Shown in pieces: positions 6,618-31,837 of a stretch of DNA of 64,000 bases. The number at the start of each line of letters is the position of its first letter. Position 1 is the stretch's first letter. This DNA comes from Tubiluchus corallicola (lineage: Eukaryota; Priapulida; Priapulimorpha; Priapulimorphida; Tubiluchidae). A program made the position numbers and the translations under genes. Where the stretch lies: NCBI GenBank assembly GCA_030141605.1, contig JAQGDQ010000079.1, forward strand, positions 186,001-250,000, written 5' to 3'. A model generated the notes under the pieces. That model saw only the letters and a list, made by a program, of their open reading frames with translations. It had not been told where the DNA came from and did not search any database.

Positions 6618-6623
6618 TTTATT
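6618..6623 (-). terminator. Candidate poly(A) signal, SLC5 distal 3' end
   Basis: TTTATT on the plus strand reads AATAAA on the minus strand, about 1.05 kb after the distal cotransporter stop codon. It would give a 3' UTR of ordinary length. Other A-rich signals further left (near 5450) are also possible. Confidence 0.3.
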
Positions 6624-7671: not shown

Positions 7672-7877
7672 CTACACAGACCAAAAAATGTATAAAAACA
7701 CTGCAACGCAGAGAACGACAACCAACATGCAGTTTAAAAAGATCTTTGCTTTTGGATCTTGCTCTAGCGACGAGAGAGTGTGCAAATGCTTCCGGAGTTC
7801 CTCACTCGCCTTCTGACCCTCCGGCGAATAATCTAAGCCAATTAGCCAATTCCAAATCTTTTGACAAATTCCTCGAC
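7672..7877 (-). CDS. SLC5 distal alternative last exon
   Basis: The exon follows a TTTTTTAG acceptor, enters in phase 1 and ends with TAG at 7672-7674. It encodes a cytoplasmic segment and a last membrane helix: QKIWNWLIG, then [15 protein letters not shown], then a hydrophobic stretch ending FWSV. It is homologous to the exon at 9482-9735, which has the same phase and order of motifs. Joined to residues 1-601 it gives a 669-aa protein, near the 664 aa of human SGLT1. Confidence 0.85.
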
Positions 7878-10800
7878 CTAAAAAAGCAATTTAAAATAAA
7901 AAACTAAATCTAAATTAAACTAATTAAAATCTAAAATAAAAAATTAAAATCCAAAATAAGAAACCAAGGTCCTGGCTTTATGAATAAAGTCTTTCACATA
8001 AAGTAATAAAATTTTAACAAAATATAATGATTTTGTTATAATAGACAATGTTGACTTATAATAAACAATAAGTCACAAGAAGCAAAAAACCTTTTCAATG
8101 TAATAATTTCAAAACAGATTAAAAAATAAGCACATAATTATTATGCTTTAACTAAATCTTCGTACATAATAAAAAACTTGAAGTAAGTAAACTATGTGTG
8201 AAAATGTATAAAAACAAACCAAGAAGGAAAAAATTAACAACAAAGCTGCATTAGCAAATCAGAGAAAAATTCTACTGCAAGCACGAAACTGGTTTTATCG
8301 CACGCTGACAATCCACAACCTGAAGCTACGGTCAAAAATGCAACATCAACATTGATAGTGCTACTATATATATGATGATCACTACATAACACTCAAATTA
8401 TTTGTAAGAACTATCAGTATTAGACCTACAAAACAAAAGACGTACGAAAAGTATGAAAAGAGTCGATGTCTTCAAGTTAAATATGTACTGGAGTGTGAAA
8501 TATGGTTCGCAAGCATCGCTTGTAAGATATTCTAATGAAAATAATGATGACTAGCTACGATTTGATTTACTATATATATATTATAATATATATATTCCTA
8601 AATCTTTTGCTATTTTCAGGGTGACATGCTCGAAATCACATTTTAGGAATAACGTTACATATTTTTCATATTATACAACTCCATTGCTACTTATTTTTAC
8701 TTTGCCTTAAGTCTAGCTTTTATACAGCAGTACTTCATTAGGAAGCAATCTTCATTCAAATGCAAACAGCTTGCGAACTTATTGGATACAGTTGCAAGAA
8801 CTGCATAAACTCAGGAAAGTTGAACCAATGATAACAGTACGTTTTCTGCTGCCATGCTGACCTACCTTTTGTATATTACTTCTCTGGTTAATTATTCCCA
8901 AATCATCCACAATTTTTGTTATAATGATAAAGAAATACCATCATCACAATGCTTCCGTTACGATCTGATGCCAATTCCCGATGCCACAGATCAAATTAGA
9001 CTATACGGAAACTAGCTATTAGCTATAGCTCAAATGCATTTCACCACATTTCAACAGGTCACTTGTCCACATTCTACTGGTGTGATTTCGAATCCCAAAA
9101 TTGAATGCTAGAAGTAATATGAAGACAAAACCAATTCTGCAAGTGCCTGAGGAGAATACAGTGGAATCCACAAAACTTACGACATTAAAGAATTGTTTTC
9201 ACGCGTATTCCCTAGTAATATTTAACCTAACAAAATGCACTGTTGACGAAGAACTGCAAGCACATAATAATGCAAACAAGAGTCTAGTATACAATGAGCT
9301 AAAAATTCATTCATTGTATGAATTACTAGTAGCATGTAACAACTGTTCTAAAGCTAAGCAAAAATCAACAGCAGAAAAATAAGAAAGAGAAAATGTTAAG
9401 TAACAGCACAGAATGGCACAACTGTTATCACAATTTGCTAGCAACCACATACTCATACCTCAACCATTTTGAAAAGTCGACTCACTGCCCTGAATTGCAT
9501 TGTGGATTATAGTGACAAGCAGGCCACCAGAACGAGAAATAAAAGAAGCAAAAAGCTGCAGTAGATAATACAAAACAAAGAAGACAAGTGAGCAACAGTT
9601 TAGCCTTGGGATCTTGACTCAATGAGCTCAGTTCAGCCAAGTGTTTGCGCATTTGTGCCTCGTTTAGGCCACCAGGGGGCTCGTAATTATATCCAGTAAG
9701 CCACCTCCAGCATTTCTGCGACATCGATACTTTCTCTGCAAATAAGTAGCTACCAACTGAAAGAAACTAAAGAAAGTAGAGCATGCACAGCAAAATAATT
9801 AACTAAATGACCATTTATAAGGTGCAAAATCTTTACTGCTGGTAAAAATTTTAGAGACTAAATGACTATACAGTATTAAAAACAGGAAAAACATGTTCAT
9901 TAAATAATAAAACAGATCAACAAAAAATTTACCAAACTAATAAAAAACGTTTACAAGAAAAAACTTCCAAACAATCATTCACTGTTTGTTCACAGCCAGC
10001 ATTTGTACAACTTTTAAATTTCCAAGCCCATTTAGTGACCAATTCATACTCAGAACTATTAGTTAAAAAAACAGTTTTGGGGAGTAAATCAGAAGTGGTG
10101 TTAAGCTCAGGAACTAACCCTATTACACTAATTGAAATATTACAGATACAGTGCTGAAAAATAATAAAATCAAGATGAATAACAATAAGTTTCTCAAATA
10201 AAATTACATAAATAAAAATTATGCAAAGGAAAAAAGAAAGGCACTTGTTATATAATTCAGAGTTATACCAAATACAAACTTCACTTACTATAAGTAGCAG
10301 TGACTGTTAACTTTTTGTTGTCTTTGTCAACATCAGCACCACCATCTAAAAGAATAATACTCACATAAAATAAGTGAAGACACAGTTTAATTCGACAAGT
10401 AAATAATGTTTTATACTGAATAGATAAAACAAACAATTTTCTCTAAACTACCTTTAGGTTTCATAGGTATTACTTCGCCATTATGTTGTACACCAGCAGC
10501 TGTAAAAAGCAAGAAAACAAAAGATTACTGTCAGTCTCAATGCACGATAGTTCTCTTCCCAACTACAAAATTATATTTGTAACTGAACAGCCTAAAATAA
10601 TAAAGATTTTGAGACATAAAATACTCAGTGGGGTGGAGTTGTCCTAAACAAAAACATCTTCCACACGAAATGTCATTACAAAATTTTTGTAAATCAAAAA
10701 AAATATCGATATGTATCTAAATTATGGAAGCAATAATAACTGCAAAAAATGTCATCTTTTTAAATTATGCAAATCATGTTTTTAGTGCTTCTCTAAGAGC

Positions 10801-13800
10801 ATGAGTAATTAAAAAGTTCGTACCTTCATCCACATGTTCAACATCTTCTACTTGAGTTGTATCAAACCGAGTCCAGTATGTTGTTCGCACAGTCTGTTAC
10901 GAACAAATGTTGATAAATAAACTGTTTCTAAATCTTTCTAGTTAACTAATACATTTTCATATGCAAGAAAAGAATTTAGTACAAACAAGAATTTTAGTTC
11001 ATATAGCACACTGTTTGGAAAACAGACTTCCCTGTTATGTCACTAAATTACGTCATGTATGAATGGCACAATTCACTATAAAAAGACATCATATTGAGAA
11101 ATGATGAACAAATGATTAACAAAATGACTAAACGTAAATAGAATCCTACTTACATATTTTTGAGGCAATGGTTCAGTTAAAAGACTGACCACAACGGAAG
11201 AAACGACTGTTATCACAAACAGCAGCAAAGCAAAATACATGTAATGAAAATTCTTCACGATTGCCGGACGAGGGTCACCATTATGGAACTTATCTATGCA
11301 CTCGGGCTCGACGTAGTAAAAGTCCAGGCCCATACGTATGAAGCCAACTACAAAGCCTGCAACAAGGCCCCAGAAGCAACCCTGAAAATAAAGAAAACTT
11401 ATACGTTCACACAAATAGCTGTTGCAGTTTTTATTCCGGGTCATGTGGAGACTAAAATCGTTTTTTTTTTACTATGAATATGTAGCAATTTCATCTGGTA
11501 ATCAAAACAAATACAAACCATTGCAGCTGAATTACTCGGAAGGATAAGACTACTGCAAATAAAGAAGTGACATTTTTGGACTCAAATGAAAATTTTGCAT
11601 GATATAAACCAGCAGAAACATATTGATGCATCATTCAAGATGACGTTACACACATACATCAATTGAATAAATTTAAAACAAAACCTACAAAAATCAAAAC
11701 TCTTGAAATGATTTCACCTCAAAGAGCATAGAACATCCGTTTTACCAAATAAAGAAATTTAAATTGCAAGCTATTGTAAATTTGTAATGTAATTTAATTT
11801 TTTGTTGCACAATAAATGACCTTATACCTAGTCACATGTTGGAGCAAATATTTTAAACCAAGCAGAATAGATGAAGAAATGACAGCAGAGCAAAAATAAA
11901 TAGAAAAGAAGAGGACATACATAGTGCAGAATTCTTAGATGTATTTTAAGCTTGAACTGTGTAAAAACATATCAGAATTTTATCTTATTACAAGCAAGTG
12001 ACCAAAAAATATTCTCATAATTCTGCTTAAATAGCTTCAGCAATTGAGTTCCATACGTTGGAAACTTTGGCAGATGGGTATTGTTTGCCACTCTGTTCTC
12101 CCAAGTCCCAACACTGGTATCACACAGTTTAGAATTACCATCAAAGCTGTTTTTTAATATTATTATTTGGCACACTGCAAGCCGGAATCCAACATCATTG
12201 GCAGAGCCTAATCAATGATGATATTATGTGAGAAAGTCAGGACTTGGGTCATCATTAAAACCATGCCTCTAAAATGAGACACTGACGTGCCAGAGGTATC
12301 TTAGCCACGTTCGAATGTATAAACACCCTCCTTTAATGAGGTAAATTGGAAACTAAGTATAGAGAATGAAGCCACTAGCACTGTCACGGGTTAACTTCGA
12401 TCATAAATTCACAAAGCACACGTGCGTGGTCAATGTACTATTTACTCCACCTCAAGTTACACTGTTTCCCAGAAAGAAAAACAGGTATCTGAAGTGAAAT
12501 CCTAACTTTATCGAAAATAAGAATCTGCCTCCTCAGCACCTCAGTTGAAGTCAGACTAATGAAAATGCACTTTACTAATGAGAATAGTCCTTGAAGAATC
12601 TAATTGCTTCTAGGATGGACTTGAAAATGTTATTTATTTGCAAAAAATCTGTAAACATGTGTCAGGGAAAATTCACAACTGGTGAACGTTGAAGTGGCAT
12701 TTAACGCTTCTCATCACAACACATCGAGAACAAATTAAGCAGACAGATACAGCACAGCACAATGTGCCACAGTTCACCGCTAGCACCAGTGTTCAAACTT
12801 GCTGCATACATACTGCTTCATTCAGCCGCGGCCAGAAAACAGAAAGAACAAAAGCACAGGAGATGGGCGGAGCCACGTAGTTTCCAATTTTATAGATGTA
12901 CAACGTTAGCCCGCCACCCTGCAGAACTTGCAAAACCGGAAGCCAAGCCACACTTGCTATTACCATGGCAATTACAAACATTCTGAAATTATAGTACAGG
13001 CTACTCATGTGAACTAATCACAATCCGGCTTCTCACAATTTCTAATCACTCGGATTTTGCTAAACCATAACAGGTGTAGTTTATAAATTAAAACAAAACT
13101 GTTATAATAAGAGATCAATATGTAGGAATTTGCCAAACACTTTATCAAATGAAAGTACTTTACTAACATGAAAAACTTAAGTAGAGTAAATTCAAAATAA
13201 TTAGCTTTTGAGTTTGAACAGTAGGGTAGTGTAATTACTTATAAGTTTATTCTAAATTTAAATACGGACATCAAATGCAAACTCTCATTATAAGATTAAT
13301 GATAAAAACTTCAGGAATTAAAAAAAATTCTGGTTACTTACTTTAATTTTCTAATATTTAGCTTTCATTTAATTATGATTAAACAAAAACTTGAAATCAC
13401 TTTTCTCGTTACTCATGATTCCTATTACTTTAACCTTCTAACATTCAACTTTCATTTCATTTATGACTACACAAAATGTTGTCATTGTTGTGACCATTTA
13501 TCATGATTGCAATCATACCAACCCACCAGAGGTGGAAAATCTTACAAATGTCCCAGGGACTAAAAGTTGGCATCCTTGCATGGACCAAGCCCAGAGATTT
13601 TCATAGAAGTATCTAGTATCGAGATTGTTGTGGGGGAGGGGGGTTGCAGCACAGGGTCACAAAGGTCTATGAAGACTTGAAAAGTTCGACTTCTAAAATG
13701 TCAAATTTATTAGAATTTTCACCATTTACACGTATTTGCTTCAGACACAACATCAAACAATAATTCTGCAAAATATCTCACTCATTTAGACAATGCTTAT

Positions 13801-16800
13801 GTCTGATGTTGTTTAACTACTGAAGGAAGTTCTTTTGAATGTCAAAAAGTTGTTAAGCAGTGAAGTTTTTAAGATATTAGCACATGACTTGCACTGGTTG
13901 ATGACTAGGTGGTAAGACCAGGCGCAACGGTAACTATAACAGTGTAATTTGAAGCCAACCACAACTCATTGAGTCAGCAAGGCAATACTCATTATGAAGT
14001 GAATTTTAATACTGGCCATTGGTCAGGCTTGGAAGGTTGACCGGGCTACTACAAAAATCAATATATCTTATCTTTGTAGCAGCGAGTCTATTTATAGAAC
14101 GAGATCATTACTACAATACATGTAGTTCAGTCACATACATTATACCTGAATTTTCTGCCGCTACCAAGTTTTTGAGTATGACGCAATACGTAGGGACAAA
14201 TTGCAGTGTATGCAAGCGCACAGAAAATTATCTCAAGTAATAATTATATTGTAACTTTGACGAGTATTATAATGCGGAACAGTTTTGTCGTATTTACTAA
14301 TAAAGAGAGAAAAAATGGAAACTTTGTTTTTAAAATTTTGAGAAAAAAATTGTGTCCCTCTGCCAGAAGATGTGTTCCGCAGACCACATCCGTCAGTCTG
14401 GTAAGATTTTCCAGCCCCGCGATCCAAACCACTGGTTTTTAGTGTGGTGTTTGAGAAGGGGTAAGATACTGCATTTTCAACTTTAAACAACAGTAGTTTT
14501 GACCACTCAACTTCCACATATAATAGCACATAGAATTCTAGTCAATTTCTTCCAAAATGAAGATGCGTTATAGTATTACTTATTATTACAAATAATGACA
14601 TTTTTGATTTGACTGTCCATGATCATCACCATTTGGACCTAGCATGCTAGTGGCTTGTTAAAAGCCTAACGTATTTGATATTTTGGCCTGAATAGTAAAA
14701 CTTTTCATTAGTATTTACATATAGTAAGCTTAAATTAATTGACAGTATTGTGAAAAAGATAGAAAATTTAGTAAACTGGATTAAATTTCTTTAACTGGCT
14801 ACAGCCAATGTAATTTAGTGCAAACTAAAGTAGCACAAATATACATGTTGTTGGTTTCCACTGTTAAATTAGCACATGCTCAGTGTTTGCAAGTGCATCA
14901 ACAAGCTAATGTTGTATGTTGCCCAGCATAATCCCAGACACTGTCCAGTATAAACCAACACATTTTAAACAAATAATCACACATGTACAAGCAAAAGCAA
15001 ATAAGCACATTTCTCAGGTAAGCAATTGTAAAACTGTAAAACGTGTCATGCAATGTAATCTGTTCGTTGTCTTGAGATGTTGCCAGATTACTGACCTTTT
15101 CATTGAGACGTTTCCACAGCACAGACAATGTGTACATAGCAGCAAGCGGCGGAGACAGATGCGCCGAAACAACCTGAATGTACGTGAACAACTGACCACC
15201 TTGTACAGTTTGCAAGACAGGGACCCACAGTATGCTAATAATCACCATGATGACAACAAATACACTGCAATCCAAAACAAATAGAAAAGCAACACACTTA
15301 AACAATGCAACACAATGTAATACTTATAGTGCTCACAAACTCATCCAACGTTTGCATTATAAAGTGCTAACTGCTCATTTTTATAAGGCAAAAGTATAGC
15401 ATAAGTTAAGAGTATAAGTAAAACATTAACAATTTTCTTAACAATAAATAAACAAGATAAAGATTCTGACTGGGTTATGTATTTTATGTTCTTTAAAGAT
15501 TCACTTCTTCATCTTGAAATACGCGTTGGTTTCGAGACGCAGAAATGCATATGAATTTGTGTTTAAACTCTTATTGAGAGCCTAAGAAACTACAAATAAA
15601 ACAACCAATGATGTCATAAACACAAATTTACAAAAATAAATTGCTGATGTCCGTTCTTTTGTCCAGAATTTTTTATTTTTTTTTAAATTTCCAAGCAAGC
15701 TGGAAAATGGTGAAATTTAGAGATATTTAAGCCAATATATAAATACTTGTTTGCCGACTTACACATTTCTCAGAAAAACAAACCCAGCCAGGTAAATCAA
15801 AACTATAATGTAAATTAACAAAACAATTTATTACACACCTTAACTATAGAGTTAAGTATTAAAAAGAAATGCACAAATTAATAAGAAAACTAAATGTATA
15901 AGTTATAAATTTAAAATAATAGAAAAAGAAACATTGTAAAATACTTTTTGTAACAGTTTATACAGCAATTGGGCTGGTGCGATATCTAAATTTTTTACTG
16001 AATGCGAAAGTGTCATCCATACAATATTTTTCATTTATTTTTTCTAGCCCTTCCAAGCCTACTGATATGGAATCTGCACAACACCACCCACACTTTCTCT
16101 GGCATTTTTAGATAGCCTGGGTACCACAGTATATACAAAATTATACACAGGATCTTTATATAAAACCCAATGGAAGCAAATAGTAAAGCTTGCTTTTAAA
16201 AGACTCATTATTATTCACTATTACTAATGATAATGCAGGAAATAAATAACTAATCACCTGTGTATAAGTTATAGCAGTTTTCAAGCTCCAGAGTGGAGTG
16301 CCATGTTTGATATTATGATATTGATAGACATTTGTTTGAATTTATATTGTTTCCTATACAATTCTTCAGAATTTTTTATGGGTTTTCTTCAAAAATTCCA
16401 TCAAGTCAAATATGCACCTCACCTATTGAACAGTAGTAATTGCATGTAACCCAATAGTTGTAGCAAGTGCATTTCCAAAGTCAAGGTTTCAACTGTTCTA
16501 TGCAAACACTCAAATCAATTACTCAAGTGTATTGTTGGTCCAGAATGCGCTTTTGCAGTAAATAAATTGAATAAGCAATTGTTTGATGACAGGCATGCAA
16601 AATTTAAAAGAAAAATGATTAGCTCACGATGACATTTAAGCAAATACATTTTATTTTATCAGAATTATATTTCCAAATATGTATCATCGAAAAATTTTAA
16701 AAGAAGCCATGCTAGATATGAAAATACGATAGGGCAGACAAGTCGAATTGCACTATCAGTGATCTGTATGGTGATTACAATGATCGCTTAGTGTAGTGTC

Positions 16801-19800
16801 CTCTGTGTGAGTATGTCAATATTATCATGCACTATCAACTCATAACTACGTTAATCAGACATCAAAGTATTTGTGATGACATTACTATTCATTTTGCTGT
16901 CGTTCTTCTAGATTTTAACTTTTCATGAAAGGCATTAGTTCCCCCGGAACATGCGCAGACATACAACCACGTAAGGTAAAAATGAATTCTTTAATCCCAA
17001 AATCGACCAAAGACATCGGGCAATACAACCTTAAGCACATGGGGTCATCTAAGGTATCACAAATGCTGACGAGTATCACATGGCATCGTCCAAATCCTAA
17101 ATCAACGGGTCAACAAAAGCTAGAAAACATTAATTATATTGTATAGATGATACTATAGGCTTTGAAGTTTGGCACGAGACAGCTAAACAACGTTAAATGA
17201 CTCTGATGATCAAAACTTTCAGCTTTTACGTGATACCGAAGCTTTCGGCTTTTTTTTACTTGATTAATGTTGAGCTCAGCAAAATAAGATGATTCAAAAA
17301 TACTTTTTATTTAATTTGCAAAATGCTTTTTGCATATCAAAATTTGAACGTAAAATTTCTGTTACAAAAACAAATACAAGAAAAAATTCTAAACTATCCT
17401 AAAACTCAAAGCATAGCTACTGCAACAATTAAACAAAACAAACATAAGTCCGGCAAAACAAACATCACACACTAGTGATTACCTTCAGGTCGCAACACTT
17501 ACCGTCCAACTATAAGCAATTCTTTAATGGAAGGCTTGTGCCGTATTCGAGGGTAAATATCAATTGTAAATAACGTGCTGCTGCTGTTGAAGATAGATGT
17601 CAAATCACTGATCAGCGCTGCTATCATGCAGGCCACCATCATGCCACGAGCAGCTAAAATTAATAGTAACAGCAGACAATGGGCTAAAAGATTTAGTTTA
17701 AAGTTGTTATTGCATTAGATTGCTATAGCATAAAAAATGTATCATGAATGAATGTATCATAACACTGCATGACTCAAAAGTTTCAAACCAAGTATATCAA
17801 TCGATTTCTGCCACTTATTTAGTATGCGACATCTTTTTCTCTCCTTAAGATCTGTGATAATTTTTAAACTCTGCTGAATTATTTAATAAAGGCAAAATAA
17901 TACTTCAATTAAAATGACTAGAGTACACTAGTGTACAAATGACCAGAAAGACTGCCATGTCTAGGCACATCCGTAGTAAAAAAAAGACCGGCAATAGTAG
18001 CAAACAAAAAAATAGGTTAATGTCAGCATTTTGTCATTCTCATTTTGAGGTGAAAAAATATCTGAATGGTCATGACGCACAACTACGAAGTTAAGCAACC
18101 TAAATGGAAGAGCGAAAGACTAATATCAAGAACTATCTCGCTTAGGAACAGTTTTACCTGCAACACTGCACTGGCTGTTACATATACATCTAAACGTAAC
18201 TAAGATACCTCTGCCATTTCAGTGTTTCACCCACGAAAATTATCATTAGTAATGGGTAGGTTTTGTTCTGCCACAGCCTTCAACAATCGTGTTGGCGATT
18301 ATGACTTGTCCCAGGGTGTCAAAATATTGACTAAACTTTAACTTATGTCTAATGCAAAAGTCAATTAGTATATTTACATCATTTATAAACTTTAATTTAC
18401 GTCAAAAGTATTTTCACTCTACTCTTATGTATAGCAGACGAAGACATCTTACCACTCGGCATTAGATTCAGAACCAGGAGTGGATAAGCTAAATTTGAGC
18501 ACCCGATTCGACTCCCGCAGGCAGCTTCACAGACATCTGGGTCAGCACATGCAATGATGTCTGAAAATAGAAATAGTCAACAACAACAACAAGTCAATAA
18601 GTAAATGGTGGAATAGAATGACTCAGCAAGCAGCTGAATAATCCCAACATCTGTATCACTGAGGATTATGTTGCTCAGAAACAGGGCACCATAATGTTTT
18701 ATACAGTGAAAGAAATAAACATCCCACAAGATTCATTTTGTACTGTTTTAATTTAACCAATGAAACATCGCGTATGCGCAGTGAGATTTTTTATCTGTGA
18801 ATATCTGATCTTTCATTAATTCCACAAACTATGAAAACCATAATCACACAAAAAAATTGTCTGTTATTTAGCTTGTTCATTGAAAAAAGCTTTAGACAAC
18901 ATCTATGCATTCATCCATTGCATCAGCTGTCAGCACAACTATCTATAAACCATGTGTTAGGAATAGATATTAATAGTATCAAAGAAAGTGCATTGAAATG
19001 TATATAAAACCTTATAAAGTCCAACGGCAGTAACAGATTCAGAAATGCAAAAATTCATTTAGCTTAACAAACTGGTGTTCTAAGAATTCCAGTAATTAGT
19101 GTTCCATTCAGTTACTAATAACTAAATGACCCTCAGTTGTAAATGATCAGGTTTTCAGAGCAGCAAGTCAGTGATGACATAAAGTTACACATGCTACACA
19201 AATTTCCATGTAAATATCATGGAAAGACAACACACATTGATGTATTTTTTCTTTGCCAGCACTAGTAGACAATACAATTGTGCAAGTCCCATCAGAATAT
19301 TGCTAATTTTGCAGCAGTTTCATTATTTGCATGAAACAAACAGCTACAGTGTTTAGCACAAAATGTACTCAATCAAATAATCAACTGTTTTTTTATAAGT
19401 TGGAGAAATAATGACAGTTGTTTGGTTTGTTTATCATTACTATTGGCAGCTACGAATCCACATATACAGACGACTTACTCGGGTGTAGAACTCGGCTAAT
19501 CATTCCTGGCATAACGATCATAAACATGGGCAAGATTTTAAGATATCCAGCCAACAATGTACCACCTTGTGCATGTGACAAACTTTTTGCTGCCATTGCT
19601 CGCTGTACCATCATCTAAAGAAAGACAGACAGAGCTTGATTTGCAAAAGTAAAACAAACAATACATCATTAATTATTTATTTGAAGGAGACAGAATTGGT
19701 AGATTTTAGTATCATTATTACTTGGAAGAACTATAGCCAGCATTCCAAGCAATAATGACACTAGAATCTAATCGATTAATCATTGTTTAAGCTAATAAGC

Positions 19801-22800
19801 AATGAAAATGTAAAAGTGACACCTAAAGCATGCAAACATTTATAATATATTTGGTTTAATGGAACTCAAGGTTTATGTCAAGGAAAATCAGAGGTATATC
19901 AGAGTATTCAAAGCTTATAAATAGGCAACGCTTACAGTAAAGCAAATGCTGCTACCTAAATTTGATACTTCCACCAACAACTGCCAGTTTTATCGTGCTC
20001 ATTGGTGAAGAAGAGTCCCGTGTCTGTATGACACAGCTACTGTACGATACTAGAACACAATGACTTTAACAGCTGCAAAGATGGTGGAAATTAGTGAGTG
20101 AGTACAACACGGAAAGATCAATGTTATTTTGGTGTATAGAAAATGACTTTATTCATTATTTACTGAGCTAATATTGCTAATATCTAATTCATTTACATTT
20201 ATTTCAGTATATTTTTATATGTTCCAACCAAGTCGTAGACACCCTCAAAACCCATTTGAATTTAATGAATTTTCGATTAAAAAGTATAAAGTGAAAGTAG
20301 AAATAAAGCATTAACCTGCAAAGAACAGTAAGAACCTTTGCAGGTGTAGTTTAAATGTGACATTTTGAAGAATGGCCAAACTTGGCATTGTACTCAAACC
20401 AGTATCACCATTCCCAGAAACAAAATAGTGAATCGGAAAATTAGGTCTTTGGTTAAATACATAGTACAATTTTGTTTGTCTAGTGCATATAACTGCTTAT
20501 TTCAAGATAAATGGTTATATCTTTACACCTAATCTGAATTAGAAACTGAATTTAATGATTGAAGCTGAAAGCTAAACTTAAAGGTAAGACATTTAAATTT
20601 TTGGCAAGAAAAGCTTCTTAAGCAATCAGCAAAGCTTTTCAACATTTTTGATAGCAAAGTCCTTTTTCGTATTTCCAGGAAAAGTGATACCAAATGCTTG
20701 AATGCAGCCAAACTGTTGATGGTCACAGTAAATACCATGAAAAGCTGAAATGCCCACCTGGTCAGTACACCAGTACCAAAGTGATGCTACAGACTGGCCA
20801 AAGATAAAACCAGCCCAGGGTATGTCAGAGTGCCGTGGCTCACGTAACATCTGCCATGCATCTGCACGAGGGATTCCACATGTAGTACCGTATGTAGAAC
20901 CATTGCTGTACAAGGTAGTATCAGGAATGGCATGCTGATACTGTTCCATCAGTCCAACAAGACCCCCAACTCTTACAAATCCTGAAACATGAAATAAAGA
21001 TAAATATTATAAAATGAATAAATAAACAAACAAATAAACAAAAGGTAATCAAATGAGGGCACTAAAATAAACTAATGAAAAAATAAATGAATAATGAAAG
21101 CAAAAACTTGTGAAGCACGAATAAATGAATAAGCAAGTAAATGAATTAAACAATTAAAATTAACAAATGTACAAACAAATGCATGAATGAGTGAAAGGAT
21201 GAACGAATGGAAGAATGAATACACTAAATAACTTACCTACTATCATTAAGGATATTCCTCCAATTATCATGATAGCACATTGTAAGGTATCTGTATAAAT
21301 TACAGCTGCAAGACCTCCTGTTAATTCATACACAAAAATGATTCAGTTATCGTAAATATAACGGATACAAACAGCATATTTTTGTTGTTTAATCTTATTT
21401 TAGAAAATTTATCATAGCTTTTAATACACACTTTCAATTAAAATATATGAGAGTAAGATCTATTTAAAATGGAAAAATTACTGTAAAACTATCTTAGTCA
21501 CACAATATCAGAAATTACTACAAAACAGAGAAAGTATTACGTTACTATTAAGTACACAGGGTAGCGCTTAGTACTGAAACTTGCAAAAAATTGAAACAGA
21601 ATTTTGAATTTGAACTTGACAGCAATTCAGTACTTTCAATAATCTGAAGAGTAATTTCAAAGTAAAAAATAAGGTAGCAATTAAAGAGGATCAAAACTAC
21701 TAGAATAATTTTACATACAGGTATACCACAAAAAAAGGGAATAATATTTAAATATTGTAACACTGGCACACTGTTCAAATCTTGAAACTTGTTTTCATTA
21801 CTACTTCCTGGTAAAGAATGAACAAATTCAAAGCATCAAAGACAGAATGATTAATTGAATAGAGGTTCGTGGAGGTCACATATTTTTATAAATTTGCAAA
21901 CGTAATGCATTACTTAAAATATTTATTCTACTGCTTATATTCAACATATAAAACATGAAAACAGGATTGTCATAATTGAACAGCATACAAGCACGTACCA
22001 ATATTGATCGTTAACAATATGATGCCTTTGTAAGGTTTTAACCTTCACCATGGGTATTGGTGCAAAACTGAAGGGTACTAAGATCTGGAATTAACTTGCT
22101 TTTTTAGGCAAGATGCTCAAGGCTAGCAAATAACAATTACTGTACTTGCCTTTGGAGACCCAGTTTGGTTAAATTAATTAAAGCAATATATAAGATAAAC
22201 TGATAACTGCTAAAAACTGAATGTTAATGATAAAAAGCTTAATAAAATAATATCTACAGCTAAAGTGTAAACAATAAAACGAAGAAACAAACATTATTTT
22301 TTTAATTTTCACAAGTTTAAAAAAAATTATTTGATCAGTCTTGCAGTTAAACTAATTAAAATTATATTATTCTTTCTCACAAAAGAAATACTATCTTATT
22401 CTGTTCTTGTGCATAGGTGAATTCTTGTCTAAATATTGGCATCAGACTCTGCATCCATTAGAGCATCCTTAAGAATAGGATTTAACACATGGCAACAGCG
22501 TCGGTTAGAATTACAAAAACCAAGTATTTTTGGCATTTGGGTGTTTCAGCTTTTTTCCAAGAAGTCAGATGGTATGCGTTATGCACATGCATTTACATTC
22601 TTGTGTAAGTATAAATACCAGCAGTTAATGTCATAACATTTAATTAGGATCTGCAAAGATTAACAGTATGAGTTGAGTAACTCAAACCCCATTACAGTTT
22701 TTACAGAAAAGGATTAAACAGAAAATGATATTAAATGTTTGTGTCTAAAGAGAATAAATGCTAAGTTGGCATGCAGGTCACCAAAGTCTAAACGACAATT

Positions 22801-25800
22801 TAGCTAACGAAAACTAAAAAAATAGGCTTGGAAAGTGAAATCAACAATTTACTACACATATATAAGAAAAGAAAAAATCAGTATTTCAAGATAATTAATT
22901 ATAGTAATATTCATACATTTTAAAGGTGAAAAACTGGAAAGTATCTACTTTTCAAGTAGAAAAACTAGTAAAATTTATACAGTTTAAGTTGATAAATTAG
23001 AAAAGAATACATATTTTTAAAGCCTGATTTTTACTGATGTACTCTTGCCTTTAAATGACGTGAGTCTAATGAGCTAAAGCTCCACATGGATTTTGAGAAA
23101 TGTTATACTATGATAATGAAATGACTGAGGCCATCTCCAAAAAAAACCTGCCAAAAGTTGTAAAATTTAAATTAACTAGAGCAAAATGTGATGAAAAATA
23201 GCAATTAAGCAATATTTCTGTAACATATCAGTGCACAGTTATTAAAATCATATAAGCAATACAATGCTCGATGAATGCTTCCATAACAGTCATGTAAAAT
23301 AAGTTTTGTGAGGAAAATGCTTTAAATTTTGTTTTCATTTACACAACTGCACAAATTACTTGCAATGAACAGCACTTGGTATAATAATACTTGAAAACTA
23401 CTAATACAAATCATGGAAAAATTAACAATGGATGGTTGCACTTTTTCAGTTTGGCAAGTTTTTCTTCGGAGAAAGCCACAAATAGCTTCTCACACTTACA
23501 TACCAGTAACAGTTACCAAGCCCGTTAGAAAAAGTAGCAAAATTATAGCCCAGTAAATATTCCATCCTAAAGCTTGTTGTATAAACAGGCCACCTGAATA
23601 TAAGTTCACCTGTAATGTAATATTTTAAAAAATTTCGTGAATTTTTGTGCAGTTAAAGGAAGATCTGATGATTGTTGAGACTCAATCTCATTTTAATTTA
23701 CTGTCCAAAATATACATTTTCTTGCCTATAAAAGTTAACAATTGTTCCTTATATTTGAATAATTAGCTTAGAAAGTTAATTAACGGCAACCGAACACAGC
23801 TATTGCTTACATCAGAAATTAACCACAGTTTTGCAATGGCAGGTGTCTTCCCTTGTGCATCAAGCACATTTGCATAACTGCTACAGTACTGTTTAAACGC
23901 GTGATGTCACGAAAAATGGGCTCGACATCATATGACGTCAGAAACTAACACTGCAGTTCATGATCATGCTTATCATGGTACCGCCTTCTATTTGTCGGCC
24001 GCACGAATGTGACAAAAAGGCGCCGCTGCCAATGTTAGTAGATTCACTGAAATGCGCGTAGCTTTGAAAGTTTAACGAAATGTGAGTATCCGAGGTAATT
24101 ATTATTTAAGCTTTGATTTAAAAAAGCTATTGTAGTTTTCAACATTTTAGAGCACTCTTTATTCTGAACTAATGTTTACATAATCATCTGGTTTTCCTTT
24201 AAGGAAAGCAAAAATAGTAGTTACATAAATGTGCGTGAAAATAATCAGCTTCAATAGATTTGACTGAAATTATTGTATGTTTTCTATGTGTACATCTCCA
24301 ACGATCTTATGTTTAAAAGACTGCCTGAACGTATTGCAAAAATGTTACGAAAGAATTTTTGGTTCAATTAGATATTTTTAATGAAAGTTTAAACTTTCTA
24401 AACTTAGTTTCTTCCCAAACACATTTTATATAAACATTTTGTTGCAATTATCCTAATCATAGTAATGCCTGGAAAATTGCACACAATTATTAAGAAAGAG
24501 TTAAATATCTCTATGTAGTGTATGAACTGATTTATGTTCACAGAAAATTTTGGATTATTTCATAGGCAAGTATCTAGATAAACAGCCACTTAAAAATTAC
24601 TTACAGAAATCTTAGTGAGAATGTATAGCAGAACAGAAAGGCAAGCAAGGTACACACGTAACCTATGTCCACCGAATCTTTTGTGAATATATTCAGGTAG
24701 CGTGCTGGCCTACAATAAATGTAAACACATTTGTATGACATTTAATATAATTTCAGTAATAACTAGATAAACGATTTTGTAATTCCTTGTAAAAGCACCT
24801 GCCAAGGTTTTTAAATTGAAAATTATGTAACACATCACGTGCAAAATTGCTAGAACCTGCATTTCCAAACATGGCAAGACATGTTGAAATAACTGAATGG
24901 TGATAAAATACTATTAAATATTTAACAGGGTTTCCTTTTTGAAAAAAAGGACTGAAATGAGAGAAATTTATCTCAATAGAGAAGTCTCAATCCACTATTC
25001 AGGGTCTGGAGTTTACTCTCAGATTTTTTTTAAAAAATATGATTATAAAATATGAAAAAAAATATGGACAAAAATGTATGAGACAATACTTACTCCGCAA
25101 GCAATGTAGACTGGTAGAAAGACCCAACCAAGAATCTGAACAATCACCAAAGCCTGAAAACTTTCAGAAAATTAATATAGCACATCCAATTTTGCAATGC
25201 TAAGGCACCAGGCTAATAAAAACAAATAATTTATGGAAAATTCTACAGTAAATAACATGAAGACTTCAGAGGAACAAAAAAGTGCAAGCCTAAATTTTAA
25301 AATGATAGCACAAATAGCTAAAAAAGAACAAACACAAAATACCACTAATACGTCATTAGCAGCAAAATTAGAAAAAAATTAGGCTAAATGTTTGCAGTGT
25401 TTGAACACAACAATTTATTTATAGATTTAATTGGAAAGCAGAAAATAAACAATTGGTACTAAATACATTTAGTTCAAAAGCAGCAACTCCTATGCCTCCG
25501 GCTGCACCAGATCCAGCTAAACCAACAAAATGCTCACTTCCAATGTTACTAGCAAAAATTGATGCACCAACCTGAAATGCAAAATTCCTTAAAGCTAAAT
25601 TCAAAATTACAATATAAGCATGAACTCATAAAATATAATTTGGCAAAAGTGCAAGACCAGTTAAAAAAAACTTTAACTTTTACATTATTTTGCTTCTGTG
25701 TAGTTACAAATTCAATGCAAACTAACTATGTGTGTATACATTCCAGTTTTTATAAGTTTTTTATGTAAATGTCGGATGTGAAAGAAGTTTATTTTTGAAT

Positions 25801-28800
25801 GATCATAACGGCTCGCAGTTTAAATAATGACACTTATTTGTGGCCAGTGTCTCATGTCATTTAAATTAATATTCAGAACTTACAGGTAACCATATCATGA
25901 ATCGTCCAGCAAGAAAATATCCACTAATCGTTCCACGGTTAGAGCGAAACATTGACTGGAAATAAAATGCAAGATTATTTAATAATTAAGAATCATACAA
26001 CAAATACTTCATCAGTTTGATAAAAGATTACATCGATCATTTCATTCAGCAATCTTAGTTTGTATTTTAAATATCTATACCACTGAAACTGTGTACTATT
26101 CAGTCCTTTTACCAATACACACACTAAAACTTTTCAAACTATGCAGTTTGGCACACTGTACTCTCCTTTACAGCACATCACCAATAGTCAACATCAGAGC
26201 CTAATGGATAACTACTAAAATTAAATGGCTGTTGCAGAAATGGGATCTATCTTATTACTAAGGATAAGTCTAAGATAAGACATGGATTGGGAGAGATGTT
26301 TAACATCCTCCATCAACAATATAAGTATGTGGAGACAGTAAAATCACTCACAAGCAGGCACTTACTAATCATGCCTAACACTGCGTAATTTTGTGTCAGT
26401 GAAAACCGAAATAATTTATACATATGTGATTTAAGAAATACTGATGCAAAATTTTTTACTTTAACATTGAACCTTTTGCTTTTTAGTTGTTTTCAAATAC
26501 TACGGTTTGAAATAGTACGAAATGTCTAGGGATACCAACAAGAAATAGTATAGTACTCTCTATCATACAACAATTTGCAGACAACTCTTACTTATTCATT
26601 TACTTTACTTTAACAAGTACTTCTGCAAAAGATTGGTGATAGAAATGAAACAGTTTGAAAAAAATAAGTGTCGTTTGAAACATTGTTTTATGTTTGTAAG
26701 CTTGACTTTGACCAAATTATTGGTTTTCTTCATGACTGAAATCAGTGTTTTAAAATTTTTCCACATTGTTTCACCAGAACAGAAGAAATATGGCCTACAT
26801 TGTCTGCAAAAGAAAGAACCTGAGAAATATTAACTTGTCGCAATCCTTTTGAGTGTGTTTTTGACAAGTCACATCATCAGCAGGCAGCAGGGACAATAGA
26901 AGATCAAATAAAATTTCAAAGACAATAAATAATCCATTTAAAAAACTGCTTCACTAAAAGGTCATTTACAGATTGACTTGTAGAGCGCAGTAAGCAGACA
27001 CAGTGCCAGTGAAAACATAAAATTAGCTTAGAATGCTGTGTAAATACATAAAAGTACAAGTGGTTGTAGTCAGTGCGATGGTTTACAAGGCAATGAACTG
27101 GAACGAGTAAACAATTATAACTTGTAGGCCCTCATCAAGCTTCTTAGACAATTTGGAAACAAACCCCTTAACATATTACTATTTGCAATAGATTTTAATA
27201 ATGATGATGGTAATAATAATAATATTTTTACCAGTGACAATTCACTCATAACAAGTTGCTGACCAAAACTGACAAGTGTTTACATTTTGTTCTTAGTACA
27301 ATGAATTATTGATTTCAATCAGAATTCTGTACTTTTGTTTAGTTATTTATCTCGCTGTTGTTTTTTCACTTGCTTGCATATTTTTGTAGCATGGGTTTAT
27401 GGGTAGAGAAATGAAATTTGGTGTGATAGCAGACAGCCAAAATACAGGGAAACAAACAAAAAATGGGTCAGCCAAGTGACCAATTGTAAAAAGGAAGTAA
27501 ACTGTATGACAGACGTAGATTTTTTTTGCAAATTTATGCCAACAAAATTTGTCTTCTTCTCAAAGATCATTCTCAAAGATATCACTCTCAAAGCTAATGT
27601 TTTCTGATACTACCACAACTTTTATTTGCGAAATGATCTTAAAGAGGAACATCAGCAAATTTTGGAAAGAAAAATTCAAAAGCTTCACAGAAATGTTGTA
27701 CAAGTTAGCAGTCATCTTACATGCTTGTGTGGTCTGTGAGCTGTACATGTAAGGCAAGTAGGTAAAAAACAAATGTTTAACATGGCCAAGATAATGCCAC
27801 AAATCCAAAGACCCTGATCTCAGTGCATACATATAGCTTAGACAAATAATTATTTGACTACGTACTAGTACATGCAAACTGGTTTTTTGCCAACTTTACA
27901 AAATATATTACGTTCCTCATTGCTTGACAGAAGACCAACCATTAAATGGTTGCATCTAGTAGGTAGCCTAATATTTCAAGTATTACACATATTCCTACTC
28001 AACTCGTGAATTTCGCAGAAGTAAAATTAGATGTAGAGTCTGCAGGTGATATAAAATTTCAAAACAAGTTTTGAAGCTGCAACAAGTTCTAATATCAAAA
28101 TTAAGTGATCTGGCCTTTAAACTTTTCTGCCCGCTTTTGAGTGTTATGGGTCAATTATTCTGCAAAATGACTTACAGCAACAATGTCCAATTTATCTTGA
28201 TAATGTACAGGTACAGATTATGTAAACCCGCCTCAGACAAGCAAGCTAATCCAGTATATCTAGCTGCCATAAAACTGCTTTAGTTGTGTACTCTGTGCAT
28301 TTTGGATTGATTCCTGTTGATGGTCACCACAAGTAACCGTCAGACCTGTTTTCGAACTAACAGATCAAAGATGAAGGTGATTAACCTTCGATAAACTCCC
28401 ATGAACAAGAATAAGTATTTTGCTGAACCACGATGGGTACTAGGTGGTGACAGTGTGCTTTTACTGGCACCAGATAATTGACTTGGAACCAGTGTTCTAG
28501 ATAATATTTTACATACTATGCAAAGAGTTTTGCTTCCTAAAACTTTTTTGGAGAATGTAAAACCTTGGGAGCAATTCTCACTTTTCCAGTTTTTACTCAA
28601 TGTATTTACTTAACGTATTTCCTAAAATTAATACTGTCTTTTAATTATTATTATCTTTTTGACACGATTTAACTGCATTACAGAATCCTGATATAATAAT
28701 ACACCAAGATAAAGAACACGGACATCACCAAATTTCACATACATCTTATGTTTGGCAAAGAAAATGGCAATGAGTTTACAGATAGCATGATGTTCTCCGT

Positions 28801-31800
28801 TGTATTTATTAGATTTTGCAGCTCTTTATTACAGTTTGAAGGGCAAGATGTGCAGTGTTACGATTCTTTTGGCTGTTTCTCTTGAACTATGAGACTAAAT
28901 TTGATAGAAAAGTTTCGTTTATCTCAGCCTCTTCTTGCATCTGTTATGCTCAGCCTAAGCTTTTTTTAATTTTATATACACTCTTTTTATTATACTACTA
29001 TTTTAGCTGTTTTTATACTCCTAGCTTTAATTTCCACTGCACTTGTATTCGGAAATAACTTGCAACTAGACCGTGTTTACGACAAAGTCTTAAACTTAAG
29101 ATTCCACATTACGACCAAAACTGCAAGTGTTGACTGTGAAAAATCTTTGCTGACTTTATATTTGTTTCAAGATCATAATTTTGCAATTGCTGAATTCTCC
29201 GAGCTTGATTACCTAGGAAATGCATTTTATTGCAACCAGTTTCAACACTTTCGCCTATGTCACGTGACCAGACCATGCCTACTTTTCGAAAATTCCTTAG
29301 TGCATGTCTATGCTCGACTGCCTACCTGTATGTGCCATAATGTAATAGGCTTCTAGTCCAGACAAAGCCATTCTCCCTAGTTTTCACATTTTGCTACCTG
29401 CTGCTGTGACCTTTAACCCAGATGTCGCCATTCTTATATTGCTCTGTGGTAGCTACGTTAAGTGTTCACCCTGAAAGTTTCGTGATTCTGACTCCTATAC
29501 ATATGGAGTTATTGACCACATCCCATTTTAACACTTTTGCCCATGTCACGTGACCTGGCCACGCCCACTTTTCAAAAAATACTTAATGCGTATCTACACC
29601 CAGCCGCCTACCCACACATGCATAAACATTGACTCCTGGTCCAATACTGTAAGAGGTGTTGAGTGACAAAGACGTTTGCCCTAATTTTCACATTTGGCTA
29701 ATTCTCACATTTCACAATTTCCGAAAAATATCTAAGGCACACCTACCTCACAAGACCTAAACACCCGTGAAAAAAAATGAATTTAACTCAAAGCCTTATG
29801 AGGAGGTGAGCAACAAAGAAAAACTGACCACTGGCCAGTGTCCTTGGCCCTTTGACCCGCAATGACTGGTCACCATACCACTGCCTGTCCCCCACCGTCA
29901 CATGTCTACCCACCAAGTTTGGTGACTCTAGGTACCATCGTTGTGGAGTTATTCACCATCGTAGCAAAGAAATAATAATAAATGGTTGATTTCCAATAAG
30001 ATTCTGCTATATGCAGTATCTTAATTATGTAAATATGCAGCTTGTTAGCAGAACTGGCAAAAACTATTTAAATTAAGGTAGAATAATTTAATTACATTTA
30101 CAATAGTGCAATTACATTGCTTATTTGCCAACACCTTAACCATTTAAACACAACATTTTAAGCACTACCATTAAGAAAAGTAAGAAAGCTGCTAGCTGGT
30201 ACAAATTTATTATATTGCACTTTTCTGAGACATTTTAATTCGTCGATTTCTCCTTAAAAGAAAATGCATAATTATTAATAAAAACATTAAATTGCCAAGC
30301 TTTCAGACAAAATTATTCAGAGACAAGCTAAGTTAAGCGAGGAGACAACAACTAAGCAATGCTTGCAGTCGAAAATAATTACAACAGAAAGTTGATTCTG
30401 TGGTGTTTTTTCTGCATTACAGAGCTGGCAGGGTCAAGGGCCCCATGGCTTTTGAAAATGTGGGCCTAAGCTATGCTAAAGTAGGTATATAATAATGCCT
30501 ATATTATTAACTAAATGGGCTGCAATAGATTTTATACCTTTGCTATAAAATAGAAAAAAACACAACATTTAATTTTGTCCAGCAGATGAACTAATTAATC
30601 TGCTAGAAGGTATCCAGCTGTCAAAGTAAAAAAGCAAAACTTGCATGGCAAAAATCTTCCAAAGAAACCCATTAAAAGCCACAGAGTCTACCTGTTTGCA
30701 CTGCACCATTTAATCAGCTTATATCAGCATCTTTACCACTACTGGACTCCCCATTGACTACATTTCTGTTGTGAAACTACTAGTATCACACATGGTCTTG
30801 CAGATGCTCAAAGCACTGCAAATGAAACAAGTCTGCAAATGCTCATTATGTCTTTCTAAATAAATATTGTGTAAATTCTTTCAACTTAGAATGTTTCACT
30901 CTTAACTTTCTTGCGCCACTTGGGCTGTGCCATCATTTACTGCTATGTGCATCACAAAATAAACACTGAGCATCTGAAAACTGATTTTAGCACAAAAATG
31001 TTTCTTTTCTAGTCACATGCTACAGAGATCCAAGTCACCACTGCTGCTACAAAGCATCAAACTTTTGCCAACATAAAAAAATCAGCAGTGTCATGCAGCT
31101 AAAGCATAATAAATAGCATGTGCCATTGCAAATTCATTGGCAAAAGAAAAAATTATTATCAATAGTTAGCTAAAATATTTGTTTCTCAGTGTAAATGGAT
31201 TTATAAGTAAAACAGATTTTCCGTGCCCAAATTGTAAACAAGATGTCAGCTTAGGTAGCAAATACACATGACGTCGTAGACACTTTCAATGAATCAAAGC
31301 AGTGGAAAAGACAGAGCATAAATGGGAAATAATTATCTGGTTTGGCTATTGTAAGTTATGGCTTTCGACTGAAAAAGAATAAGCAAATTTTTACTATATG
31401 GCATTGCTAAACGCTAATTTTATGGTAAATTCAAAGTAATTGTAGAGGCACGGATTCATCCGTTTTTACAACATACCGGTAACTGATTTCTCTAACTGAT
31501 ACATAACACCCGTGTTGCTAACATTCGTACTGTAATATGCGCATATATATTAAAATAAGTTCTGTCTACAGTATATATATATATATATATATATAGGCAG
31601 TACTGTAAGATGCATTTAAAAAATATTTATTTACCATTATTAGTATCTTCGATTATCACACTTGTGCTAGAAATTTGTAATAACACCTGGTTGCTGGCAC
31701 ACTCGTACAGCACAATACTTATACATATTTTACCAAGTTTAAAATTTACTTACCAGCAAACCTACACCCAGCACCAAAATAAAATATGTTATAATAATAA

Positions 31801-31837
31801 CAATGTCCCATGCAGTAAGGACGCGGTTATTGGCCAT
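7672..31837 (-). CDS. SLC5 Na+/solute cotransporter (SGLT/SMIT group)
   Basis: Sixteen exons common to all forms, or present as one of a pair, plus a terminal exon give 669 aa (distal end) or 685 aa (proximal end). Exons in order: 31754-31837, 25884-25955, 25467-25571, 25094-25153, 24605-24709, 23504-23609, 21237-21317, 20758-20981, 19479-19614, 18453-18560, 17503-17653, then 15096-15264 or 12814-12982, then 11154-11381, 10824-10893, 10452-10499, 10289-10345, and 9482-9735 or 7672-7877. All junctions are GT-AG with matching phases. The family couples Na+ entry to uptake of glucose, myo-inositol or related solutes at the plasma membrane. Hallmarks are ASNIGSEHF (residues 59-67), [23 protein letters not shown] and [12 protein letters not shown]. 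Residues aligning with SGLT1 Asn78, His83 and Glu102 are Asn61, His66 and Glu85. Sequence features are mixed between SGLT4/5 and SMIT, so the substrate is not assigned. Confidence 0.93.
9482..9735 (-). CDS. SLC5 proximal alternative last exon
   Basis: It is accepted at TTGCAG in phase 1 and ends with TGA at 9482-9484. It encodes [28 protein letters not shown] and a last membrane helix, followed by a Cys- and Asn-containing tail that the distal exon lacks. Shared motifs (QK-W-WL-G, RKHL, LSSL, QDPKAK) make it a duplicate of the exon at 7672-7877. I noticed no AATAAA or ATTAAA on the minus strand in the 1.6 kb before the distal exon. A GTGAGT donor overlaps its stop codon, so it may also be spliced onward. 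Confidence 0.85.
10289..11381 (-). CDS. SLC5 exons 13-16: late helices and cytoplasmic loop
   Basis: Exon 11154-11381 starts [13 protein letters not shown], the conserved GAFWGL region that follows KRLNE in this family, and ends at EPLPQKY. It covers two membrane helices separated by an extracellular loop with PECID and NGDPRPA, and FHYMYF leading the second helix. Exons 10824-10893, 10452-10499 and 10289-10345 encode a hydrophilic cytoplasmic loop beginning [11 protein letters not shown] and rich in Asp and Lys. The three small exons are all phase 1 at both ends after the first, so skipping 10452-10499 or 10289-10345 would keep the frame. Confidence 0.85.
12814..12982 (-). CDS. SLC5 mutually exclusive exon, version B
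   Basis: The exon is 169 nt, accepted after TAATTTCAG in phase 2 and leaving at GTATGT in phase 0, exactly like the 169-nt exon at 15096-15264. It encodes [36 protein letters not shown] and [11 protein letters not shown]. By hand it matches version A at 28 of 57 residues. At the position aligning with SGLT1 Gln457 it has Tyr, and at that of Thr460 it has Gly. Because 169 is not a multiple of three, including both versions would break the frame. The open frame, splice sites and conserved PP and W-RLNE residues argue against a dead copy. Confidence 0.85.
15096..15264 (-). CDS. SLC5 mutually exclusive exon, version A
   Basis: The exon is 169 nt, accepted after TTGGATTGCAG in phase 2 and leaving at GTCAGT in phase 0. 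It encodes [36 protein letters not shown] and [11 protein letters not shown], close to the SGLT consensus GQLFDYIQSITSYLGPP. Its Gln441 and Ser444 align with the sugar-contact Gln457 and Thr460 of human SGLT1. It is the more family-like of the two versions and is likely the standard transport form. Confidence 0.88.
17503..17653 (-). CDS. SLC5 exon 11: Na+ site segment
   Basis: This 151-nt exon encodes the segment [18 protein letters not shown] followed by [12 protein letters not shown] and IDIYPRIR, ending at the conserved LLIVGR. SGLT1 has SSLTSIFNS, where the two Ser (392 and 393) help form the Na2 site. Here the pair is Ser376-Asp377. Asp at this place also occurs in human SMIT1 as I recall it, which supports kinship with the inositol carriers. 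The phase-2 end (CG) is completed identically to Arg by either version of the following exon. Confidence 0.88.
18453..20981 (-). CDS. SLC5 exons 8-10: extracellular loop and core
   Basis: Exon 20758-20981 encodes a Tyr/Asn-rich extracellular loop with possible N-glycosylation at NGS, then [11 protein letters not shown] and WYWCTDQ. Exon 19479-19614 gives [18 protein letters not shown] and [18 protein letters not shown]. Exon 18453-18560 gives a Cys-rich loop ([18 protein letters not shown]) and NLAYPLLV. All are standard SGLT elements in the standard order. The loop cysteines match the disulfide-rich loop of SGLT1. Confidence 0.88.
21005..21228. repeat. Degenerate tetranucleotide repeat filling an intron
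   Basis: Almost the whole 255-base intron 20982-21236 is built of four-base steps such as AATA, AATG, AACA and GAAT on the plus strand (pyrimidine-rich TTYA/TTTG steps in the transcript). The array is decayed but the four-base rhythm persists for about 220 bases. Confidence 0.6.
21237..25955 (-). CDS. SLC5 exons 2-7: N-terminal core helices
   Basis: Exons 25884-25955, 25467-25571, 25094-25153, 24605-24709, 23504-23609 and 21237-21317 encode [14 protein letters not shown], the [16 protein letters not shown] motif, [46 protein letters not shown] and [13 protein letters not shown]. These are the sodium/solute symporter signature regions. The residues matching the sugar- and Na+-site positions Asn78, His83 and Glu102 of SGLT1 are all present. 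Phases are 0,0,0,0,1,1 down the series. Confidence 0.9.
23888..24075. promoter_or_regulatory. CpG-rich intronic island with CRE sites
   Basis: Inside the intron between cotransporter exons 5 and 6, a roughly 190-base patch is much richer in CpG and GC than its surroundings. It contains a perfect CRE (TGACGTCA, 23933-23940), a related TGATGTCA near 23902, and GGCGCC. On the plus strand it ends in a plausible splice donor (AAAT then GTGAGT, near 24082). It could be an enhancer, an internal or antisense promoter, or a GC-rich repeat. No coding frame supports an antisense protein gene. Confidence 0.3.
29230..29985. repeat. Dispersed repeat with internal duplications
   Basis: Two diverged copies of one segment start near 29247 and 29532. 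They share CATGTCACGTGACC, then a CACGCCCACTTTTC-like stretch. Two further related ends near 29478-29520 and 29915-29965 share GTGACTCTAGG-like and GGAGTTATTCACC-like text. The block ends with AAGAAATAATAATAA, a retroposon-like A/T tail. No coding capacity is convincing. The family is not identified. Confidence 0.5.
31572..31595. repeat. (TA)12 microsatellite
   Basis: About twelve perfect TA dinucleotides in intron 1 of the cotransporter gene, some 160 bases downstream of exon 1. Confidence 0.9.
31754..31837 (-). CDS. SLC5 first coding exon
   Basis: The ATG at 31835-31837 opens a 28-codon exon ending at GTAAGT in phase 0. It encodes a short hydrophilic N-terminus ([11 protein letters not shown]) and the start of the first membrane helix, the same arrangement as human SGLT/SMIT proteins where AADI precedes the first helix. 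The next exon continues in frame with MFRSNRGT. Confidence 0.85.

Follow-up and report, generated by a model that had tools for sequence, protein, structure and literature searches.

The window, by which we mean the whole 64,000-nucleotide stretch of the Tubiluchus corallicola contig analysed here, contains on its minus strand a complete SGLT-type SLC5 gene whose model encodes 685 amino acids. Its mRNA comprises 17 exons (Table 1) with AG and GT borders and a single frame running from 31837-31754, the first, to 9735-9482, the last, the two versions of exon 12, named A and B, being counted as alternatives. The SSF family (Pfam PF00474) matches exon by exon, and the best solved relative of the model is human SGLT1, whose structures match with an E value of around 1e-199 over 513 residues. 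Possession of the SSF domain, along with full-length similarity to SGLT1/2, places the gene among the SGLTs. Alignment to human SGLT1, the numbering of which is used throughout for residues of the sugar site and gate, reveals that N78, H83, E102, Y290, W291, K321 and Q457 of the sugar site are all kept in isoform A. Searches with B against contigs of prokaryote genomes, and with A against IMG/VR, gave no match, as expected for an animal gene. The genome has, by our estimate, around 40 genes for nuclear receptors and a similar number for Cys-loop receptors, which points to a probable bilaterian; a search for COX1 gave no match.

Table 1. Exons of the SGLT-type SLC5 gene and an associated repeat, in window coordinates.
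Feature	Position	Strand	Remarks
Exon 1	31754..31837	-	Start codon and first helix (28 protein letters)
Exon 2	25884..25955	-	
Exon 3	25467..25571	-	Contains sugar residues N78 and H83
Exon 4	25094..25153	-	
Exon 5	24605..24709	-	
Exon 6	23504..23609	-	
Exon 7	21237..21317	-	
Exon 8	20758..20981	-	Y290/W291 region; homologous exon doubled in paralogue G000:C1893:73-88k
Exon 9	19479..19614	-	Contains K321
Exon 10	18453..18560	-	
Exon 11	17503..17653	-	Upstream neighbour common to A and B; exits in phase 2 (CG, then N; Arg with either copy)
Exon 12, version A	15096..15264	-	169 nt; TM9 and TM10, with F453 and Q457
Exon 12, version B (exon 13 of the model)	12814..12982	-	169 nt; phases as A; F453T and Q457Y
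Exon 14	11154..11381	-	Downstream neighbour common to A and B; entry in phase 0
Exon 15	10824..10893	-	
Exon 16	10452..10499	-	
Exon 17	10289..10345	-	Exits in phase 1
Exon 18a	9482..9735	-	Terminal coding exon; last helix and stop
Exon 18b	7672..7877	-	Second terminal coding exon; 50% identical to 18a; phase as 18a; own stop
Interspersed repeat	13519..14427		Within the intron between A and B; about 35 related copies in the genome

The original prediction singled out A and B as tandem exons of exactly 169 nt, and both lie precisely where it placed them. Each is indeed entered in phase 2, the CG left by exon 11 being completed to Arg by either copy, and each leaves in phase 0. The AG and GT borders are present (acceptors ...ggattgcag for A and ...aatttcag for B, donors gtcagt and gtatgt, respectively), with acceptor and donor scores inside the range set by constitutive exons of this gene. 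The hand count of 28 identical residues out of 57 is reproduced when the split-codon Arg is included, and at the nucleotide level 86 of 169 positions agree. The residue span given for the segment, 411-467, is correct once the first coding exon is added. No stop and no indel interrupts the 169 nt of B which, with its flanks, matches just one place in the 343-Mb assembly.

It had also been proposed that the reading frame enforces a choice between the copies. Joining A to B does bring a stop 90 nt into B, and skipping both brings one 31 nt into exon 14, so that inclusion of both or neither gives an early stop; but this lock alone does not force the choice at splicing. Transcripts of either kind being non-coding, the choice is predicted to be enforced at the level of the usable message, a prediction that does not extend to splicing itself.

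A and B are neighbouring homologous exons between constitutive exons 11 and 14, and exons 14-17 are single. Their adjacency, their equal length, phases and splice sites, and protein-level selection on both (see below) are as expected of mutually exclusive tandem-duplicated exons, a known kind which is enriched in ion transport genes (PMC9741552). In every SGLT paralogue examined in the genome the gate-helix exon is single, 169 nt long and of identical phases. The gene in the window has therefore either acquired its extra copy or retained one that has disappeared elsewhere; in the exon tree, the node ordering the A/B duplication relative to the paralogue on contig C226 has 37% support.

The likeness between A and B at the residue level is not due to chance. 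When neutral drift was simulated to the nucleotide identity of B, a median of 13/56 and a maximum of 21/56 residues were kept, compared to the 27/56 observed, and 7% of runs stayed free of stops, as B is. By codon position (first, second and third), A and B are identical at 26, 40 and 20 of 56 sites. Corresponding figures against the exon of the nearest paralogue, that on C226, are 32/43/20 for B and 30/45/21 for A, with 30 and 31 residue matches, respectively. Changes specific to the B branch were counted at sites identical in A and the C226 paralogue, yielding 8/45 at second positions against 11/21 at third positions (p=0.0075); for the A branch, the equivalent figures are 6/43 and 10/20. 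Exchanging the reference for the C1893b paralogue leaves the pattern in place (B, 11/48 second and 13/21 third positions; p=0.0027). Since the changes on the B branch avoid codon position 2, the signal does not come from A alone: purifying selection acts on B's own branch, and B is not a decaying copy.

These data bear directly on the strongest rival reading, that B is a once-used exon recently silenced, a young pseudo-exon yet to acquire stops. In its favour are the radical changes at two conserved positions and the length of the B branch, 1.62 changes per site as against 0.48 for A, from which constraint on B may be weaker. However, the frame of B is uninterrupted, its splice sites are intact and selection at codon position 2 is seen on its own branch. 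Moreover, the changes at invariant sites are not scattered randomly over the 14 such positions but fall on both gate residues (1 in 91 by simple count), and we regard silencing as improbable.

Exon 12 corresponds to residues 427-483 of human SGLT1 and encodes a first hydrophobic helix, TM9, its limit within the exon being that which we infer, followed by TM10, the gating helix, which bears a Pro-Pro pair. The swapped segment thus includes the helix at the sugar site, as had been suggested, but its partner is the preceding helix and not the following one. Comparison of human SGLT1 with seven sugar-type SGLT exons from this genome, A among them, defined a set of 14 invariant positions. Twelve of these are kept in B and the two changed are F453T and Q457Y; in addition, the near-invariant Q451 is Gly in B. 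Having Tyr and Thr in place of Gln457 and Phe453, the pair characteristic of sugar SGLTs, isoform B should not be classed among the standard sugar transporters, judging by its sequence, though the remaining protein is common to A.

Both positions feature in published structures. F453 and Q457 are outer gate residues of TM10 and, in the occluded structure of hSGLT1, they close off the route of entry above the sugar together with residues of TM2 and TM6 (PMC10203128). The substitution E457Q makes the hSGLT3 sensor a coupled transporter while, conversely, Q457E uncouples hSGLT1 (PMC2857651), and Q457R abolishes transport with weak binding remaining (PMC8410129). From this published work, residue 457 sets sugar binding or affinity and Na+/sugar coupling. 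The way in which SGLTs couple sodium to sugar depends centrally on this residue and on the TM10 gate. With Thr and Tyr at both outer-gate positions, affinity, substrate or Na+ coupling is expected to be different in B. Thus isoform A is expected to act as an ordinary Na+/sugar (or Na+/inositol-type) cotransporter and isoform B to differ from it in substrate, affinity or Na+ coupling. Most likely the pair makes a sugar isoform of the standard kind together with another whose gate has been rebuilt; that the choice between them alters sugar handling is somewhat less secure, though we favour it. A paralogue at G000:C1095:330286-330471 is likewise off consensus, with Met453 and Phe457, but in contrast to B its exon is separate, single-copy and further changed (P465T, L473T).

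Duplicated exons can serve as poison exons. B might accordingly be not a strict alternative but an exon whose inclusion alongside A causes a frameshift and reduces the gene's output, and the stop that then falls inside B is as such a role would have it. No poison role, however, needs a conserved 57-residue transmembrane segment, its frame or a length of 169 nt, and B keeps the 12 invariant residues and the codon signature of translated sequence, making this reading very unlikely. Least likely of all is an assembly error, or a piece of another SLC5 gene in tandem put into this one: SLC5 genes exist in multiple copies, both on this contig and outside it, and there is a second terminal exon further downstream, but a single exon has been copied between exons 11 and 14 with exons 14-17 present only once, the introns of A and B lack similarity beyond chance, and B is just 51% identical to A in DNA and is found once.

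A mutually exclusive pair of SLC5 exons, as originally predicted, is therefore the best reading of the anatomy, the frame lock, the usable splice sites, the single genomic copy of B and the selection on its branch, all of which are shown by the analysis. That A and B are a true alternative pair, with one copy used per message, we consider highly probable. Tandem duplication would have given rise to mutually exclusive exons in this SGLT-type gene, with either A or B entering each mature mRNA and those mRNAs carrying both or neither meeting an early stop and, presumably, nonsense-mediated decay. Both isoforms would be made, their choice regulated and function changed by that choice, which would act as a switch of transport mode in the manner of the exon 4 variants of NKCC2.

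As to how exclusivity might be imposed, the two mechanisms considered, intron pairing and intron length, yielded none that enforces it. Docking or selector RNA pairing was sought among the three introns but the best ungapped helices were no better than random, and no long-range intron-intron base pairing above chance was found; a whole-intron duplex comparison was no more informative. Steric exclusion was rejected, the 2113-nt intron between A and B being far too long; some 0.9 kb of it is interspersed repeat. The pair thus does not belong to the sub-class enforced by intron pairing or steric hindrance, which excludes that sub-class only: regulation by splicing factors is possible and, together with decay of the wrong products, would be the default explanation. 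The repeat itself is present in about 35 copies in the assembly, 70-86% identical.

The original prediction knew of no described SLC5 exon swap, and none was found by us in the open-access full texts searched; the main-text passages searched in human and fly surveys of such exons name no SLC5 case. The closest parallel is NKCC2 (SLC12A1), where the alternative versions of exon 4 alter a transmembrane helix as well as the isoforms' ion affinity and transport characteristics (PMC6873903) and which appears among human tandem duplicated exon events (PMC9741552). Like A and B, these are tandem copies of a transmembrane-helix exon in a Na+-coupled cotransporter. NKCC2 nevertheless belongs to another transporter family, its swapped helix affects ion (Cl-) binding and not a sugar gate, and its transcripts are known, whereas those of the pair described here are predicted. 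In SLC25A3 and SLC39A14, also solute carriers, homologous alternative exons swap part of a folded domain (PMC5740500), but their folds and substrates are different. Human SGLT1 and SGLT3 offer a functional comparison, in that residue 457 (Gln or Glu) separates transporter from sugar sensor (PMC2857651); there, however, two genes are involved and the alternative residue is Glu, not Tyr, while the gene in the window would contain both versions and select between them by splicing.

If the interpretation is correct, splicing could switch the transport function of one gene's product and SLC5 would join the small number of transporter families whose transport is retuned by the choice of exon. A natural splice switch of TM9-TM10 alone, with both gate residues changed, would amount to a ready-made gating-helix experiment. 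A bolder proposal, which we hold only tentatively and think rather doubtful, is that alternative splicing of this gene would yield a coupled Na+/sugar transporter (A) as well as a different-substrate or uncoupled, sensor-like protein (B), repeating the division of labour between SGLT1 and SGLT3. On this view, SLC5 genes of this lineage would have diversified through recurrent duplication of exons at the sugar site (exon 12 in the present gene and exon 8 in a paralogue) and of a terminal exon.

The terminal exon is indeed doubled as well, as 18a and 18b, the C226 paralogue having only one; two by two choices of A or B and 18a or 18b would make four proteins possible. Between the stop of 18a and 18b there is no AATAAA or ATTAAA, the first ones being at 6623 and beyond.

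The homologue of exon 8 is duplicated in the paralogue G000:C1893:73-88k (L013, L014), around 110 kb away on the same contig. Its copies, 8a and 8b, are 215 and 209 nt long (L013 6375-6589 and 9284-9492); both are 2 mod 3 and hence frame-locked. Each spans the TM5-TM6 loop as far as WYWC[TS]DQ, containing Y290 and W291, making these a second candidate mutually exclusive pair, in the Y290/W291 region of the sugar site. Contig C1525 holds a copy of the gene approximately 92% identical, both exon 8 copies included; between the two genes, 8b has 11 differences (dN 0.058, dS 0.045) and 8a two. In the exon tree (tree rows 7a, 7b) the single exon of the paralogue C1810 groups with 8a, with 90/91 support, which suggests that the duplication of exon 8 is old.

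Other SLC5 paralogues are arranged variously. The closest is seemingly split between the start of one contig (L022, G000:C215:1-10000) and the end of another (L021, G000:C226:101000-107629), with gate-helix and terminal exons that are each present once in its 3' half. An intronless SSF gene occurs at 13393-14580 of both G000:C1107 and C2057 (L003, L004) with identical coordinates and scores, and these are likely to be duplicated contigs. Several further full-length SSF frames are intronless, for example on C452 and C1716, and at G000:C1915:1158000-1192000 (L009-L012) three SGLT-type genes lie in tandem, with one gate-helix exon each.
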